Shown: one piece after another, positions 2,686 through 46,901 of the stretch
Layout of the letters: every line of letters begins with the position of its first letter
How positions within the stretch are numbered: position 1 is the first letter of the stretch
DNA from: Thermoproteota archaeon
Lineage (GTDB): Archaea; Korarchaeota; Korarchaeia; Korarchaeales; Korarchaeaceae
Assembly: GCA_027491415.1 (NCBI GenBank)
Contig: JAOZFH010000035.1
Coordinates: 1 to 56,170 of the forward strand
Direction of reading: 5' to 3'
Length of the DNA stretch: 56,170 nt
Translations under genes and position numbers: made by a program
Notes under the pieces: model-generated
Databases searched by the model: none
Told to the model about the DNA's origin: nothing
What the model saw: only the letters and a program-made list of their open reading frames with translations

Positions 2686-3993
2686 GTGGCTCTCATGAGG
2701 GTAATGAGGGGAGACGAGGCCTGGAAGTACGTCGCGTCCCTGGAAACGAGAGATATAGAGAGCTGGCTTTTCAGACAGGCGGTCGAGCCCGTCATCAGAG
2801 ACGTGAGGATAAGGGGCGACACGGCGATCGCAGAACACCTGGTCAAGGCATACGGCGTGGAGATCACTCCGGAGGATTTCCGGGTCTCGAGGTGGGAGAT
2901 CGAGGATGCCACTTCAAAGCTCTCTCCCCAGAACAGGAGGCTCATCGAGGAGTCCATCGAGGTGATCGAGGACTTCCACAGGGGTCAGATGCCGCAGACC
3001 TACTCCAAGAGCTATCCCTGGGGTGAGGCGTGGATCTCCTGGGAGCCCCTCGACAGGGTCGGGGTTCACGTGCCCGAGTACGACGAGGTGGCCTACGTGT
3101 CCACCCTCCTGTTCGCAGCCGTCCCAGCGAAGGTTGCCGGGGTCAGGGAGGTGGCCGTCTTCACCCCCCCGCTGGGAGGCGGGAGAATCCACCCGGTCCT
3201 CCTGGCCGCCTGCGGCATCCTGGGGATAGAGGAAGTCTACAGGATAGGGGGGCCCGTGGCAGTGGCCGCCATGGCCTACGGCACCTCCAAGATCCCGGCG
3301 GTCGAGAAGATATTCGGGTCGGGGGACAGCTACTTCATGGCGGCCAAGCAGATCGTCGCATCTGACGTGCCAGTTGACATGCCCTCCGGGCCGTCGGAGA
3401 CTGTTGTCCTCGCCGACTCCTCGGCGGATCCGAGGGTCGTCGCGGCGGAGATGGTCGCCCAGGCTGAGCACGACGTGGACTCCATGGTGCTGCTCCTCAC
3501 CGACGACGAGGGGCTCGTTGAGGAGGTGTTGAACATAATCGAGGAAATGGCCAGTTCTCTGGACAGGGGCGGGGTTGCCAGGGAGGCTCTGGATGGTAGA
3601 GGGGCCGTGCTGGTGTTTGAGAACCTCGACGAGGTGGTAGAGGCCGTTAACGTCATCGCCCCCGAGAGGGTGACGGTCCTCTCGTTCAAGGACTCGTCTC
3701 TCGCCTCCGAGATAAAGAAGGCCGGCGCCGTCTTCGTGGGGCCCTACACCGTCAGCGCCTTTGGAGACTACGCCCTGGGCATAAACCAGCTCCTGCCCAG
3801 CGGTGGACACGCGAGGAGGTTCGGGGCGCTGACGGTGCACAGCTTCCTCCGACCCGTGGCGCACGGGAGGGTCAGCCCCGACGGGGCCAAGGAGCTCGCC
3901 GACCTGGTGGCCGGGCTGGCCAGGTTGGAGGGGCTCACGGCGCACGCCGAGGCCGTCAGGATCGCCACTTCCTCCCCGTCAGCCCGGAGCTGA
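2686..3993 (+). CDS. hisD: Histidinol dehydrogenase family protein (HisD-like, altered active site)
   Basis: A 435-residue member of the HisD family, which oxidises histidinol to histidine with NAD in a zinc-dependent reaction. Zinc ligands are kept: Q259 and H262 in AQAEHD, the Asp in GDYALG and the His near the C terminus (HAEAVRIA). GPSETVVLADSSADP is also canonical. However, the catalytic PEHL motif reads PERV (His to Arg), the NAD-contacting GPGN reads GSGD (IFGSGDSYFMAAKQ), and GPNHVLPT reads GINQLLPS. No other histidine gene is nearby. It may therefore act on another substrate or be a paralogue. Start is GTG 2686, or ATG 2695 in the same frame. Its end overlaps the convergent RNase H gene by 38 bp. 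Confidence 0.8.
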   Translation: MALMRVMRGDEAWKYVASLETRDIESWLFRQAVEPVIRDVRIRGDTAIAEHLVKAYGVEITPEDFRVSRWEIEDATSKLSPQNRRLIEESIEVIEDFHRGQMPQTYSKSYPWGEAWISWEPLDRVGVHVPEYDEVAYVSTLLFAAVPAKVAGVREVAVFTPPLGGGRIHPVLLAACGILGIEEVYRIGGPVAVAAMAYGTSKIPAVEKIFGSGDSYFMAAKQIVASDVPVDMPSGPSETVVLADSSADPRVVAAEMVAQAEHDVDSMVLLLTDDEGLVEEVLNIIEEMASSLDRGGVAREALDGRGAVLVFENLDEVVEAVNVIAPERVTVLSFKDSSLASEIKKAGAVFVGPYTVSAFGDYALGINQLLPSGGHARRFGALTVHSFLRPVAHGRVSPDGAKELADLVAGLARLEGLTAHAEAVRIATSSPSARS

Positions 3994-41640: not shown

Positions 41641-41830
41641 GGTCCCCTGCGGCCTACCACCTACCCTACCCCACGAACGGGGAACCGGGAGTATGGGGAT
41701 CACGATTCCCGATCTGAGGCAGAGGAAGTAGCCCCAGGCCGGATGGGCATCCGTGCTCGAGAGGCCCCCTCCCGCCCTATCCAGACAAGGGTGCAACGCG
41801 TCGGCGGTCTTCGGCGTCTCAGTGAGCACG

Positions 41831-41863
41831 TCAGTACGAACCTGCGAGAAACCGTGTTATCAA
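41831..41863 (+). promoter_or_regulatory. Promoter and upstream element of peptide gene 1
   Basis: tcagtacgaacctgcg (41831-41846) begins exactly 70 bp before ATG 41901; a nearly identical 16-mer (two mismatches) begins exactly 70 bp before peptide gene 2. About 8 bp downstream lies the TATA-like tgttatcaa (41855-41863), predicting a start near 41885 and a ~16-nt leader. Confidence 0.55.
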
Positions 41864-41900
41864 CGGGCGAGGATCCCCGCGCAGGTCCGGGTGGTTGAGC

Positions 41901-42017
41901 ATGGCCGTACTCTCCGCGTTCTTCGGGCTCGGCGCGGAGGACCTCAGAGCCTCCGTGGCCGTCGCCTCCTGCTCGGCCTGCTGCCTGGCGGGCGGAGGGG
42001 GGACCCTCATCGCCTAG
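41901..42017 (+). CDS. RiPP precursor peptide 1 (Cys/Gly-rich core)
   Basis: 38-residue peptide. Leader-like part MAVLSAFFGLGAEDLRASV then core CSACCLAGGGGTLIA at the very C terminus. The second peptide gene 160 bp downstream ends CAFCCLLAGGGTLIT: equal 15-residue length and pattern C-x2-CCL-x2-GGGTLI-x. Conservation of the extreme C terminus with a divergent N-terminal half is the hallmark of a modified-peptide precursor. It has its own promoter and a T5 run (42036-42040) after the stop. The radical SAM enzyme with a PqqD-like leader-binding domain downstream is the expected maturase; Cys thioether (sactipeptide-like) links are the best guess. ATG 41901 is preceded by ggtgg six bases upstream. 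Confidence 0.72.
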   Translation: MAVLSAFFGLGAEDLRASVAVASCSACCLAGGGGTLIA

Positions 42018-42035
42018 GCCCCTCCACCTGCCACC

Positions 42036-42040
42036 TTTTT
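42036..42040 (+). terminator. T-run terminator after peptide gene 1
   Basis: Five T in a row 18 bp after the stop; archaeal RNA polymerase terminates at such runs. It would separate the peptide 1 transcript from peptide 2. Confidence 0.35.
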
Positions 42041-42106
42041 CTCGATAAATCCGGCTTCTTTCAGCCAATGGAGTAAGATTCGACCATTTATGGATATGTT
42101 ATCACC

Positions 42107-42140
42107 TCAGTACGAATCTACGGATCATGATTTTTACATC
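42107..42140 (+). promoter_or_regulatory. Promoter and upstream element of peptide gene 2
   Basis: tcagtacgaatctacg (42107-42122) repeats the element of gene 1 at the same 70-bp distance from ATG 42177. The TATA-like gatttttacatc (42129-42140) follows 6 bp later. Base composition here (42040-42160) is clearly more A/T-rich than the surrounding genes. Confidence 0.55.
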
Positions 42141-42176
42141 ATACTGGCCGGAGCCTCAGCCCAAGGGGTGAGGTGT

Positions 42177-42296
42177 ATGGCGAGCGTCCTGGGCGAGTGG
42201 AGGGATGTGAGCGCCGCCGACATCGGCGACGGCGTGACGGCCTGGCCCTGCGCCTTCTGCTGCCTCCTGGCTGGAGGGGGCACCCTAATCACCTGA
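42177..42296 (+). CDS. RiPP precursor peptide 2 (Cys/Gly-rich core)
   Basis: 39-residue paralogue of the peptide at 41901. Leader-like part MASVLGEWRDVSAADIGDGV, core CAFCCLLAGGGTLIT. Three Cys at the same spacing, Gly triplet and TLI are shared with peptide 1. ATG 42177 has a good Shine-Dalgarno (ggtgaggtg) directly upstream; the frame is open to 42090 but upstream codons look non-coding. A T6 run at 42314-42319 follows the stop. Two related precursors before one maturase is common in peptide clusters such as lanthipeptide and sactipeptide loci; the mature product cannot be stated. Confidence 0.75.
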   Translation: MASVLGEWRDVSAADIGDGVTAWPCAFCCLLAGGGTLIT

Positions 42297-42311
42297 GGGT
42301 CCCTCTCTCCT

Positions 42312-42321
42312 CATTTTTTGG
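42312..42321 (+). promoter_or_regulatory. T-rich element: possible terminator of peptide 2 and TATA box of the maturase
   Basis: cattttttgg contains T6. Its centre is 26 bp before GTG 42343, so it can serve as the maturase TATA box while also ending the peptide 2 transcript. This would let the short peptides be made in excess over the enzyme. Confidence 0.4.
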
Positions 42322-42342
42322 GCGTGAGCGGGGGTGTTCGGC

Positions 42343-43743
42343 GTGTCTAGGCCGGTCCTGAAGCCGTTCGTCGGGATCAGGAGAGAGAATTTCGGGGTGA
42401 TCCTCTACAGAGGAGGCTCCGACCAGATTCAGGCGGTCCACCCAGTCGCCGCGTACGTGCTCACCCTCATGGACGGGAGGAGGACGCTGAGGGAGATCGC
42501 GGAGGCCTTGGCGAGGGAGCTCGGCAGGGGCGTCATGGACGCCATGGAGATAGTCGAGGTGGTTCTGGACAGATACGCGGACTACGTCGATCTCGAGGGC
42601 TCCCACGTCAAGGACCTTCCGAGCCCGGAGGAGCTGCTCGAAGGAGTACCGGCTGAGATCCCCCCGGAGGAGGCCCTCCTCGGCAGGCTCAGCGCTCCGA
42701 CGGGCTTCGGCTACATCGTGACCCACGCCTGCCCCAACAGGTGCAGGTACTGCTACGCCGCCGCCTGGAGGAGGACGAGGCTCGAGGACGACCTGGTCCC
42801 CCTGGACGTGATCCTCAGGACCGTGGACGAGGCGGCGGACGTGGGGGTCAAGACGATCCTCATGACCGGCGGGGAGCCCTTCATGAGGCCCGACCTGGTG
42901 GACATAGTCGAGCGGGGCCTGAAGAGGGACATCTTCGTCTACATACCAACCAAGTCGCTGATAACCGAGGAGAAGGCCAGGAGGCTCAGCGAGGCCGGCC
43001 TGGGCTGGATCCAGGTGAGCATAGACTCGCCAAATCCGGAGACCGAGGACTTCCTCGTGGGGCCCGGGGCCCACGCGAGGCTGACGACCACGGTCAGGAA
43101 CCTGGTCAGGCACGGAATCGACGTGAGGGTCAACTCCGTCGTCACCTCTTACAACGTCAGGGAGGTTCCGAGGCTGATCGAGTGGCTCTACGAGATGGGG
43201 GTCAGCAGGATCTCCCTCTCACCGTATCAGTCCCCACACGACGTGGTCGACGACGACCTCTTCCCCTCGGTGGGGGACTACGCCTGGCTGCTGGACAGGA
43301 TCGAGGAGCTGCCGAGGCACCTGAGGGACGCGCTCGACCCGGCCGGAATACGGGCGATAGAGAACGCCGTGAGGGTCAACAGAGACGAGCTGGAGGACGT
43401 GGAGGCCCTGAGGAAGTGCTCCGCGGGAAGGAGTTCCCTCGTAATACTGCCGGACGGCAGGGTCTCGTTCTGCGAGAGGGTGGCGCTGGACGAGAGGTTC
43501 GTCGTGGGAGACCTGAGGAGGCAGTCTCTCATGGATATATGGAGGTCGGAGAGGCTGGAGAGGCTGGTGTATCCACCGAGGGAGCTTTTCTCCGGCACGG
43601 CGTGCCACGACTGCCCCATCTTCGACGAGTGCACCAGGCTGGGGAAGAGGTGCTACGTGAGGGCCATGGACGCCTACGGGGAGCCCTTCGCCCCGGACCC
43701 GATATGCCCGGCCGCGCCGCGGGTGGAGGGCAGGTTCGTGTGA
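42343..43743 (+). CDS. Radical SAM/SPASM peptide maturase with N-terminal PqqD-like RRE domain
   Basis: 466 residues from GTG 42343 (ggggg-tg six bases upstream; GTG 42334 possible). Residues about 1-95 match PqqD: NFGVILYRGGSDQIQAVHP, AAYVLTLMDGRRTLREIAEAL, the fold that binds precursor leaders (RRE). The radical SAM core has THACPNRCRYCYAA (CxxxCxxC cluster), GGEPFMRPDL and QVSIDSPNPETEDF. The C-terminal SPASM domain holds further clusters: KCSAGRSSLVILPDGRVSFCE, GTACHDCPIFDECTRLGKRCY. In known systems such enzymes form thioether or C-C crosslinks in Cys-containing peptides. It directly follows two candidate substrates and overlaps the ABC ATPase start (gtga). Confidence 0.88.
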   Translation: MSRPVLKPFVGIRRENFGVILYRGGSDQIQAVHPVAAYVLTLMDGRRTLREIAEALARELGRGVMDAMEIVEVVLDRYADYVDLEGSHVKDLPSPEELLEGVPAEIPPEEALLGRLSAPTGFGYIVTHACPNRCRYCYAAAWRRTRLEDDLVPLDVILRTVDEAADVGVKTILMTGGEPFMRPDLVDIVERGLKRDIFVYIPTKSLITEEKARRLSEAGLGWIQVSIDSPNPETEDFLVGPGAHARLTTTVRNLVRHGIDVRVNSVVTSYNVREVPRLIEWLYEMGVSRISLSPYQSPHDVVDDDLFPSVGDYAWLLDRIEELPRHLRDALDPAGIRAIENAVRVNRDELEDVEALRKCSAGRSSLVILPDGRVSFCERVALDERFVVGDLRRQSLMDIWRSERLERLVYPPRELFSGTACHDCPIFDECTRLGKRCYVRAMDAYGEPFAPDPICPAAPRVEGRFV

Positions 43744-44741
43744 CGGGGGTGGGCGAGGTGGCGTCGGGCGTCGCGCGCGACGCGGTGATCGCCGAGAACC
43801 TGGTCAAGTACTACGGAGACTTCAAGGCGCTCGACGGCGTCTCCCTGAGGGTCGAGAGGGGAGAGGTCGTGGCCCTGCTGGGCCCCAACGGGGCTGGGAA
43901 GACCACCACCATCGGCATACTCTGCGGCCTCATGTCCGCGGACGCCGGCAGGGCCTTCGTCCTAGGGGTGCCGTCGACCGACAAGGATGGGGTGAGCAGG
44001 CTGATCTCCTACGCCCCGCAGGAGACGGCCCTTGACTACCTGATGAGCGTGGAGGACAACCTGAAGTTCATCGGCTGGCTGAGGGGGCTGAGAGGCGGGC
44101 GGCTCAGGGAGCGAATCGAGTGGGCGCTGAGGGAGTTCGGCCTCCTCGAGAAGAGGAGAATCCCGGTCATAGCGCTCTCAGGTGGGCTGATGAGGAGGGT
44201 CCAGCTGGCCGGGGCCCTCATGCTGGAGCGCGAGGTGCTGGTGCTGGACGAGCCCACCCTCGGGCTTGACCCCATGGGCAAGATGACCGTCTGGCAGATG
44301 GTCAGGGAGAGGGCCAGGAGGGGGGCGGCCGTGCTGGTCGCCACCAACGACATGCACGAGGCCGAGGTGCTCGCGGACAGGATAGCCTTCCTCAACAGGG
44401 GCAGGATCGTCGCCTTCGACACGGCCGACAGGCTCAAGGCCCTGTCCGGTAGCTCCTACCTGAGGCTGCGGCTGGAGCCCGGCTGGGAAGACCTGGTCAG
44501 TGCGCCCCGGGGGGCGAGGGTCCTCGGGGACGGGTGGATCGAGGTCGAGTACCGCGAGCCGGGAGAGGTGGCCGAGATCGTGGCGTCGCTCTCCGGCGCG
44601 AGGATCCTCGACATGAGGCTGAGGGGGCCCACCCTGGACGACGTGTTCAGGAAGCTGGCGACCGAGTCGGAGACGGTTCCAGAGGGCGACGGGGCGGGCG
44701 TGAGAGTGGTGGCCGAGGTCGGGCCACCGGCCGGGGGGTGA
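43740..44741 (+). CDS. ABC transporter ATP-binding protein of the peptide cluster
   Basis: 333 residues. Walker A LLGPNGAGKTTT, Q-loop SYAPQETALDYLMSVEDN, signature ALSGGLMRRVQLAGALM, Walker B VLVLDEPTLGLDP, switch His replaced in VATNDMHEAEV (Asp-Met-His near the expected position). The ~90-residue C-terminal extension (WEDLVSAPRGARVLGDGWIEV) is typical of antibiotic exporter/self-resistance ATPases. GTG 43740 overlaps the maturase stop; GTG 43749 and 43758 are alternatives. Likely energises export of, or immunity to, the modified peptide. Confidence 0.87.
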   Translation: MTGVGEVASGVARDAVIAENLVKYYGDFKALDGVSLRVERGEVVALLGPNGAGKTTTIGILCGLMSADAGRAFVLGVPSTDKDGVSRLISYAPQETALDYLMSVEDNLKFIGWLRGLRGGRLRERIEWALREFGLLEKRRIPVIALSGGLMRRVQLAGALMLEREVLVLDEPTLGLDPMGKMTVWQMVRERARRGAAVLVATNDMHEAEVLADRIAFLNRGRIVAFDTADRLKALSGSSYLRLRLEPGWEDLVSAPRGARVLGDGWIEVEYREPGEVAEIVASLSGARILDMRLRGPTLDDVFRKLATESETVPEGDGAGVRVVAEVGPPAGG

Positions 44742-44745
44742 TGCC

Positions 44746-45492
44746 GTGCTCGCGCCGCTGATCTGGAGGGAGTTCAAGATCCACTCCAGCAAGGCCCTGG
44801 CCCTGAACCACCTGCTCGGCCCCACCTCCTACCTGGTGTTCCTGGGGCTCAGCATATCCTTCAACTTCGGGACCGTGCCCTACCAAGGCATGGCGGTGAG
44901 CTACCTGCACTTCATAATCCCCGGGCTCATAGCGATCCAGACGTACCAGCTCTTCGCCACGACCTTCTCCCTCACCAGGCTGGACATCTCCACCAAGATG
45001 ATCACGCTGATCATGACCTCCACGAGCTTCGTGAACTACATGGTCGCGAAGATAGCCTTCGGCATGCTAGTCTCGCTCGCGACGTCCGCGTACCTCCTGG
45101 GGCTGGGCTGGGTCATCGCCGGCCCCACGGAGGTCACGCCGGCTGGACTCCTGACGATGGTCGCGGGGATAGCGCTGGGGGACTTGCTCTTCTTCTCACT
45201 CGGGCTGCTCATGGGCCTCAGGATAAGGAGGGAGGACGTGAGAGACGCCATCTTCGCCCTGGCGGGAACGCCGGCGCTCTTCTCCAGTACGGCCTTCTAC
45301 CCCATGGACAGGGTGCCGGCGCCCCTCCGGCTGGTGGCCAGGCTGAACCCCATATCCCACATAGCAGACATCGTGAGGGCTGGCTACCTGAACGCGAGCC
45401 CCGACCCGCTGACCTGCCTCCTGCTAGCGGCCTACGTGGCCGCCGCCGTGGGCGTTACGTACAGGGCCGTGAGGCGGTTCGTCGTCAGGTGA
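44746..45492 (+). CDS. ABC-2 type permease of the peptide cluster
   Basis: 248 residues, six helices (GPTSYLVFLGLSISFNFGT, LHFIIPGLIAIQTYQLFAT, FGMLVSLATSAYLLGLGWVI, LTMVAGIALGDLLFFSLGLLMGL, LLLAAYVAAAVGVTYRAV). ABC2_membrane hallmark FYPMDRVPAPLRLVARLNPISHIADIVRAG is intact. Four bases separate it from the ATPase stop. No C39 peptidase domain is present in either ABC subunit, so leader removal must be done by another protease. Confidence 0.86.
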   Translation: MLAPLIWREFKIHSSKALALNHLLGPTSYLVFLGLSISFNFGTVPYQGMAVSYLHFIIPGLIAIQTYQLFATTFSLTRLDISTKMITLIMTSTSFVNYMVAKIAFGMLVSLATSAYLLGLGWVIAGPTEVTPAGLLTMVAGIALGDLLFFSLGLLMGLRIRREDVRDAIFALAGTPALFSSTAFYPMDRVPAPLRLVARLNPISHIADIVRAGYLNASPDPLTCLLLAAYVAAAVGVTYRAVRRFVVR

Positions 45493-45509
45493 GCGCCCGC
45501 GGCGCAACA

Positions 45510-45539
45510 CTTTTATTTGATCAATCAATCGATTGATTG
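45510..45539 (+). promoter_or_regulatory. TATA box plus 18-bp palindromic operator of the regulator gene
   Basis: cttttatttg (45510-45519) is followed by the perfect palindrome caatcaatcgattgattg (45522-45539), which covers the region between TATA box and GTG 45539. A dimeric repressor bound there would block initiation; the regulator gene it precedes encodes a winged helix, so autoregulation is likely. Confidence 0.6.
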
Positions 45540-46579
45540 TGCAGGGTGGGGACGACCTCAGGGACGCCGGGAGGATAGTGAGGCACCTGCTGTTCAACAG
45601 CCTCGATGTGGAGTCCCTGAGCATCCGGGGGATGGAGAGGGCGCTGGGCATACCCTTCTCCAGGCTCAGGCGACTGCTCAGGTGGCTCCAGAGTGAGGGA
45701 GTAGTCGTGGGATATCAGGTGGGCACCTCGATGGCCTTCAGGGTACTAGACCTCGAGAGGGCCGTTCACCTCGGCCTGGTGAGCCTGTCCACGGAGGACC
45801 TGGAGAGGGCCGTGTACGGCTCCATGGCGCTGCCGGCCTCGGTCAGGGGCATGGTGCGCGACGACCTCACCCTCAAGTTCCTGCCAGCGTCCAGCGACCT
45901 GCCGGGGCCCTACCTCGCGGCGATAGGGGACCTGAGGAGGAGGTGGGACCTCCTCTACCAGGCGGCCAGGAGGGCCTTCACGGGCGGGGACGGGGAGAGG
46001 GTGGGGCAGACGGGTCGAAGGGGGGCCGACGGCATGGAGGCCAGCCTGAGGCTCCTGGGGAGGGATTTCGTGTCCAAGGCGGGCCTCATCCCCCTCCTGT
46101 ACCTCGTGGCCGTCAGGCAGCTCAAGGTCCCTGTGGAGGTTGAGCTCGACGAGGACGACATAGAGGGCATGCTGCACAGGCTCAGGGTCGAGGCCGGCGT
46201 CGGGGAGGACGAGGTGAGGCTCCTGAGGTACTTTCCCTCCCTGGACCCCATAGCCCTGTTCGCGAGGGACGTGGTCATGGAGCTCGGGGTTCCCGAGGAG
46301 GTGAGCGAGGAGGAGCTCAGGCGGGCTGTCTCCAGGGTGGCGGAGAAGTACCTCCGCCTCCTGCTGAAGTTCTCCCGCGGGAGGCACCCGTCCAGGGAGG
46401 CCCGGCTCGTGGAGGCGCTTACCCTCAGGCACGGGGCCCTGTTCGGCATACTGACCGGGGCCCCGGCGGATCTCGTGAGTGAGTGCCTCTCCAGGGCGAG
46501 CGAGCTGGAGGAGGGGTCGAACTCAGGGGAGGGGAGGTTGAGGTCGTTGGGGAGGTGTGGGGATGCTCGAGCTGGCTGA
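45539..46579 (+). CDS. Winged-helix transcriptional regulator with large C-terminal domain
   Basis: 346 residues. The N terminus has an HTH: RHLLFNSLDVESLSIRGMERALGIPFSRLRRLLRWLQSEG with wing-like VVGYQVGTSMAFRVLDL. The long helical remainder (about 95-340) has no motif I recognise (e.g. LLYLVAVRQLKVPVEVELDEDDIEGML); it could bind an effector or oligomerise. GTG 45539 gives a leaderless mRNA 24 bp after its TATA box and lies in the palindrome; TTG 45533 is the alternative. Position next to the RiPP operon makes it the first candidate regulator of that cluster. Confidence 0.68.
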   Translation: MQGGDDLRDAGRIVRHLLFNSLDVESLSIRGMERALGIPFSRLRRLLRWLQSEGVVVGYQVGTSMAFRVLDLERAVHLGLVSLSTEDLERAVYGSMALPASVRGMVRDDLTLKFLPASSDLPGPYLAAIGDLRRRWDLLYQAARRAFTGGDGERVGQTGRRGADGMEASLRLLGRDFVSKAGLIPLLYLVAVRQLKVPVEVELDEDDIEGMLHRLRVEAGVGEDEVRLLRYFPSLDPIALFARDVVMELGVPEEVSEEELRRAVSRVAEKYLRLLLKFSRGRHPSREARLVEALTLRHGALFGILTGAPADLVSECLSRASELEEGSNSGEGRLRSLGRCGDARAG

Positions 46580-46901
46580 GCCCCCCGTCGCGGATGCTGA
46601 GGCCGTGTTCTCCCTCAGGAGGAGTAGGGTAAGGAGGGAGGTCCTCTCCTTCCTGGCCAGGATACACCCGAGGGCCTCCTACCCCAGCGAGATAGCCAGG
46701 GCGATAAACGCCAGGGCTGACCAGGTCCTCGCGGCGCTGAGGGGCTACGGGACCAGGTACAGGAGGGACATATCCCTCCTCGGGCTCGGACTCGTGAGGG
46801 AGGTCGGGAGGGGACCCAAGCTCACCCTCTACGCCGCCACCGAGAAGGGGGTCAGGGTGGTCGCCTACCTGAACATGGTCGAGTACAACCTCTCCCAGTG
46901 A
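46563..46901 (+). CDS. Small winged-helix regulator
   Basis: 112 residues: VLSFLARIHPRASYPSEIARAINARADQVLAALRG is a helix-turn-helix with the archaeal PadR/HTH-type pattern, and GLVREVGRGPKLTLYAATEKGVRVV is the wing. ATG 46563 has gggaggtg five bases upstream and overlaps the preceding regulator by 17 bp, so both regulators are coexpressed. GTG 46557 possible. Confidence 0.72.
   Translation: MLELAEPPVADAEAVFSLRRSRVRREVLSFLARIHPRASYPSEIARAINARADQVLAALRGYGTRYRRDISLLGLGLVREVGRGPKLTLYAATEKGVRVVAYLNMVEYNLSQ

Follow-up and report, generated by a model that had tools for sequence, protein, structure and literature searches.

Within the window, by which we mean the whole stretch of 56,170 nucleotides analysed here, a run of genes on one strand is best explained, as a whole, as a cluster making a ribosomally made, post-translationally modified peptide (RiPP) of the kind matured by an enzyme that combines a RiPP recognition element (RRE), a radical S-adenosylmethionine (SAM) core and a SPASM region. 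Judging from the sequence, we give this interpretation a probability of about three in four. By analogy with known systems, the most likely product would be a thioether-bridged peptide, or two of them, carried out of the cell by an ATP-binding cassette (ABC) pair. An earlier note on this DNA had proposed such a cluster, with precursors, maturase, exporter and regulators; the proposal is supported by short cysteine-containing open reading frames (ORFs) in two other archaeal genomes, G378 and G006, and by the co-occurrence of the regulators with the maturase. The features that carry the argument are these:

41901..42017, plus strand: putative precursor peptide 1, 38 amino acids (aa), MAVLSAFFGLGAEDLRASVAVASCSACCLAGGGGTLIA, core CSACCLAGGGGTLIA, from ORF reading.
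42177..42296, plus strand: putative precursor peptide 2, 39 aa, MASVLGEWRDVSAADIGDGVTAWPCAFCCLLAGGGTLIT, core CAFCCLLAGGGTLIT, from ORF reading.
42334..43743, plus strand: PqqD(RRE)-radical SAM-SPASM peptide maturase, 469 aa, from Pfam and its orthologues.
42712..43188, plus strand: radical SAM core of the maturase, residues 127-285, with C133, C137 and C140, from PF04055 and the cysteine positions.
43417..43707, plus strand: SPASM region of the maturase, residues 362-458, C-x17-C-x43-C-x2-C-x5-C-x6-C-x17-C, from PF13186.

Both peptides end in C-x2-CCL-x2-GGGTLI-x, exactly as the earlier note had read them, and a GGTG-type ribosome-binding site lies ahead of each. They are 42% identical overall. 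Their N-terminal halves had been described as different: the leaders do differ, yet both contain VL, A-x-D and, five positions ahead of the first cysteine, a V. Because of these common residues, and because the codons for the common core differ, the two are better seen as paralogous coding sequences than as a copied block of DNA. In the 1.78 Mb genome the strict pattern of the motif is met at two places, both at the cluster, against none in a reversed control, and dinucleotide shuffles of the local region failed to yield even one copy (0/20000). Nor does the motif appear in the other related loci that were scanned (~0.6 Mb, the same-genus locus L094 set aside). When a looser pattern was run over 394 archaeal genomes, it matched the window's genus and two spurious places only; the latter, from G092 and G350, proved to be reading frames out of context, not peptides, and were rejected. 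When 60 genomes were searched with hidden Markov models of the peptides, only noise appeared beyond the genus, and comparison of the precursors with NCBIfam and Pfam gave no meaningful match. In these genomes the exact motif, which was to be sought in other archaea, was not found outside the genus; a related one, CTVCCLIAGGT, stands beside an orthologous maturase in G378.

The maturase was said to join a PqqD-like domain, a CxxxCxxC radical SAM core and a SPASM region, and Pfam matches together with the cysteine positions bear this out (Radical_SAM PF04055, 2.5e-27; SPASM PF13186, 6e-13). The PqqD domain scores 22.8 bits (1.1e-4), just below the cut-off of 23.4, while that of the G378 orthologue, at 26.5, is above it. 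The protein has ten cysteines in all, three in CxxxCxxC and seven as SPASM ligands. These ten Fe-S cysteines, and an unusual x6 spacing in the SPASM region, are kept in the window, in G002 (a sister genus), in G378 and in Mesorhizobium, following C-x17-C-x43/44-C-x2-C-x5-C-x6-C-x17/19-C to within 1-2 residues; G002 and G378 orthologues are 35% and 33% identical to the window enzyme. The architecture is that of enzymes which bind a leader by an RRE and cross-link a cysteine core (PMC8172795). Among its best 25 NCBIfam models the maturase is below the cut-off of every curated one. The top model is the mycofactocin maturase (103.1 bits, cut-off 265), and mycofactocin, NirJ2, PqqE and StsB models all score it at a similar low level (PQQ 94.8 bits against 381; the sactisynthase StsB 93.6 against 625); SkfB, AlbA, PapB and SCIFF are not among these 25. 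An AlphaFold model of the enzyme was poor (mean pLDDT 43) and was not used.

The strongest evidence is that the arrangement recurs. A profile built from the maturases of the window and G002, run over the 394 archaeal genomes, gave a single strong match outside the family, at 300 bits, the next best outside it reaching 151. It lies in G378, a genome of another archaeal phylum within which no second strong match was found, on a 5.5-kb contig (G378:C46) that carries, on a single strand, a short ORF, the maturase, an M16 peptidase, an ABC ATPase and an ABC permease. The short ORF, from its likely start, reads MQDELLAAELRSQARAEGLTHWDVDAAHDQEVLCTVCCLIAGGT and ends in CTVCCLIAGGT-stop. The maturase identity of 33% extends over the whole length, and the ATPase and permease are 36% and 32% identical to those of the window. 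The peptidase carries HLCEH, and no further M16 peptidase is found in that genome; an M16 enzyme is a feature that the G378 version shares with the subtilosin cluster, whose AlbE and AlbF belong to this family. As the GC content of the contig (0.596) matches that of the rest of the genome (0.587-0.607), contamination, though conceivable, is not indicated. In the sister genus, G006:C188 holds the start of a maturase with a 46-aa short C-x3-C ORF, MSPDELERLRMSIARMGLKLRDSAGLDATDVCPVACVLLKYDPEPD, directly upstream and, divergent from it, homologues of two proteins described below, the winged-helix one (29% identical) and the EarA-like one (50%). Homologous short cysteine ORFs, sought beside orthologous maturases in related genomes, were therefore found in both G378 and G006. 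Radical SAM matches at 24-31% in other relatives were set aside as belonging to other families (a Cys-Ala tail system, haem-type genes, and G263). With the peptide, enzyme and pump together in a distant archaeal lineage, the set looks like a real, so far undescribed natural-product family.

Purifying selection counts in favour as well. The sister species G001 (JAOZFN010000012.1), 96% identical, keeps both peptides: peptide 1 differs by one synonymous and one non-synonymous change, peptide 2 by three synonymous and no non-synonymous changes, and neither has an indel, while indels do occur in the stretches before them. The dN/dS values are 0.17 for the maturase, 0.24 for the ATPase, 0.09 for the permease, 0.28 for the winged-helix protein and 0.14 for the EarA-like protein. 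Every gene of the cluster is under purifying selection.

Related maturases were also found, by tblastn, on plasmids of Paenibacillus peoriae, Mesorhizobium and Rhizobium. In a tree, the enzymes of the window, G002, G378 and the rhizobia form one clade (support 99/97), to which neither the haem-type nor the Cys-Ala-tail enzymes of these archaea belong; the rhizobial proteins are placed by this tree, the Paenibacillus one by 32% identity and its SPASM signature. As in the window, a cysteine-rich short ORF directly precedes the maturase in these loci (NZ_AP023260.1, NZ_CP121654.1, NZ_CP011513.1), whose annotation goes no further than "hypothetical protein" and "radical SAM protein". Their cores, in contrast, are CDSCTVCPCMICW and C-x3-C-x3-C-x2-C-x3-C-STGG. 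The rhizobial plasmid loci (L107 5235-7089, L121 6683-8512) have an ORF of 77-78 aa ending in CDSCTVCPCMICW, then two radical SAM genes; on the P. peoriae plasmid (L106 7538-9424, NZ_CP011513.1) two tandem cysteine-rich ORFs stand before a frameshifted radical SAM-SPASM gene. A scan of 379 bacterial genomes at 1e-45, made without a positive control, gave no member; viral contigs gave no match, and phages only partial, weak radical SAM matches.

How would such a system work? In each precursor an N-terminal leader would precede the core, C-x2-CCL-x2-GGGTLI, at the C-terminus, and the maturase would bind that leader through its N-terminal PqqD-like domain. The radical SAM centre would then form a 5′-deoxyadenosyl radical and abstract a hydrogen from the core, with the SPASM clusters helping to close a bond, most likely a thioether from cysteine sulphur to carbon. 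A host protease would remove the leader, in the G378 version probably the M16 peptidase, after which the product would leave the cell through the DrrAB-like transporter. The earlier note had all three cysteines joined to the GGGTLI tail. This is weakened by the other cores: that of G378 stops at CCLIAGGT, without LI, and that of G006 has neither GGGT nor the middle cysteine, so that either the acceptors sit near the cysteines or different members make different rings. What all four archaeal precursors have in common is Cys1, Cys5 and a hydrophobic residue after Cys5.

Several points weigh against this interpretation. The G001 maturase has a frame-breaking deletion of one nucleotide (L033 ~7122, equivalent to window position 43456) with conserved sequence on both sides; it could be an assembly error or a fresh pseudogene, and hence decay, though the rest is conserved. 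A peptidase devoted to the peptides is missing from the window, the genome yielded no M16 peptidase at all, and G002, whose contig does not extend over the peptide region, has no ABC genes downstream of its maturase. Both outside loci, in G378 and G006, come from fragmented draft assemblies and lie on short contigs. Beyond G000, G001 and G378, finally, the cores diverge strongly (G006, rhizobia).

Other radical SAM chemistry (epimerisation, a carbon-carbon or ether linkage, cyclopropanation), with the cysteines acting as ligands or forming disulphides, is possible, if unlikely. It would fit an enzyme that passes the cut-off of no characterised NCBIfam equivalog and the lack of conservation of the proposed GGGTLI acceptor tail in G378 and G006; yet no core residues are better conserved among the four archaeal precursors than C1 and C5, and cysteine-rich cores recur with the bacterial members of the clade, as expected of enzymes making thioethers. 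The transporter raises a similar question at similarly low odds, namely that it is a self-resistance pump against a toxic product and not a peptide exporter. Its nearest models are DrrA and DrrB, a drug-resistance pair, and a peptidase C39 domain is absent; against this, the cluster has no other exporter, and the two roles are compatible. We consider it improbable that the product is a non-secreted, peptide-derived redox cofactor or metal ligand, as with PQQ or mycofactocin, the ABC genes being adjacent by chance: the best model is indeed a mycofactocin maturase, CxxCC could bind a metal, and the G002 locus continues without ABC genes, but the maturase comes coupled with homologous ATPase and permease genes in two different phyla of archaea, and PQQ or mycofactocin partner genes are not beside it. 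That the short ORFs are chance or non-coding, with the maturase acting elsewhere, is hardly credible: they are tiny, and their only close copy, in a 96% identical species with 5 changes in total, is weak evidence of conservation, but CxxCCLxAGG(G)T recurs ahead of an orthologous maturase in another phylum, and neither the shuffles nor the other related loci produced the motif.

Returning to a RiPP cluster as the preferred interpretation, its nearest parallels are the sactipeptide clusters (subtilosin sbo-alb, thurincin H, thuricin CD, SKF; PMC8172795), where short cysteine precursors likewise lie beside an RRE-radical SAM enzyme with SPASM or Twitch, along with ABC transport genes and often a protease and regulators. 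The window has the ABC genes and probable regulators but no peptidase, an M16 peptidase being present in the G378 cluster; thuricin CD, too, has two precursors. The thuricin-type sactipeptide core, however, is CX3CX3C or CX3CX2C (PMC3132745), unlike C-x2-C-C-L-x2-GG(G)T, and the SPASM spacing C-x5-C-x6-C and the archaeal host further set the window apart. Ranthipeptide systems (SCIFF/CteB, PapB) also combine RRE, radical SAM and SPASM with cysteine-rich precursors, but their Cys-x3-acidic repeats are not in the window peptides. PQQ and mycofactocin maturases (PqqD/PqqE, MftB/MftC) have a PqqD-type domain with a radical SAM-SPASM enzyme; here that domain is fused, not separate, the precursors have neither Glu-Tyr nor a C-terminal Val-Tyr, and the partner biosynthesis genes are missing.

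The precursor type is matched in no family library that was searched, and no matching paper was found in the open-access literature, subscription papers lying outside the search's reach, which agrees with the earlier suggestion of an undescribed family. To our knowledge, very few archaeal radical SAM RiPPs have been characterised. A survey of archaeal RiPPs predicts many clusters in archaea, some of them ranthipeptide- and sactipeptide-like (PMC12144867); a word search of its text found no mention of radical SAM, SPASM or Korarchaeota. The cluster adds an archaeal candidate with short precursors, an exporter and a maturase below the curated cut-offs; its second copy, in another phylum, brings a candidate leader peptidase, and it has bacterial cousins on plasmids. 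The system would show whether one maturase clade acts on very different cysteine cores. We hold as doubtful, and as speculation, the bolder proposal of a horizontally shared archaeal RiPP class in which a distinct clade of radical SAM enzymes closes the vicinal-Cys core CxxCCLxAGG(G)T into a compact ring system of new topology, giving a secreted two-peptide signal or antimicrobial that acts between archaea.

The remaining features concern transport and control:

41827..41846, plus strand: 20-bp cis element CACGTCAGTACGAACCTGCG, upstream of peptide 1, ending 54 nt before its ATG.
42103..42122, plus strand: 20-bp cis element CACCTCAGTACGAATCTACG, upstream of peptide 2, ending 54 nt before its ATG.
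43740..44741, plus strand: ABC transporter ATPase, DrrA-like, GTG start (PF00005, 5.9e-28).
44746..45492, plus strand: ABC-2 permease, DrrB-like (PF01061, ABC2_membrane, 2.6e-9).
45523..45538, no strand assigned: 16-bp perfect palindrome AATCAATCGATTGATT, immediately ahead of the GTG at which the winged-helix gene starts, from sequence reading.
45539..46579, plus strand: winged-helix protein, probable regulator, with a presumed leaderless GTG start, from its modelled N-terminal winged helix.
46563..46901, plus strand: EarA-like winged-helix protein (PF07381, 1.7e-22).

That a coupled ABC ATPase and permease follow the maturase, as first described, agrees with Pfam and with the overlap between the ATPase start and the maturase stop. 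The two winged-helix regulators of the same description are likewise supported, by a model and by PF07381, and by their co-occurrence with the maturase in the sister genus. The larger one has no Pfam match, and only the N-terminal domain of its AlphaFold model (pLDDT 52) is trusted. Among 40 other genomes it is present in G001 and G006 only; as it is otherwise known only from the window's genus, and yet adjoins the G006 maturase, the two regulators belong to the system. With the paired 20-bp element they would control its expression. Even when 2 mismatches are allowed, the genome contains this element (consensus CAC[GC]TCAGTACGAA[CT]CT[GA]CG) at these two places only, and the same pair is carried by G001; its role could be that of a site for a regulator, of a portion of the promoter or of an element in an untranslated leader. 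The winged-helix and EarA-like genes have an AT-rich upstream region of their own which includes the palindrome, and so probably form a separate transcript. The palindrome, in a 46-bp intergenic stretch unchanged in G001, is a candidate autoregulatory operator of the winged-helix gene. Elsewhere, at L084 (G000:C46) 2979-3284, minus strand, 27 residues that match the C-terminal portion of the winged-helix protein at 70% identity suggest a remnant of a second gene copy; that contig ends in an apparent repeat array, perhaps CRISPR.

Finally, the Cys-Ala-tail enzymes belong to an arrangement of their own. At 13 loci of the same family, a protein of 560-580 aa with a nearly invariant tail, SCACVSCACACACVSCACACAGGG[VAL][GR]-stop, and without a Pfam or NCBIfam match, overlaps a PqqD-like radical SAM-SPASM gene. 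Such loci include L075 (G000:C39, 600-3688, minus strand), L078, L074, L072, L008 and L009, and further L012-L015, L017, L020, L022, L024 and L026. This looks like a family-wide system modifying a Cys-Ala tail on a large protein.

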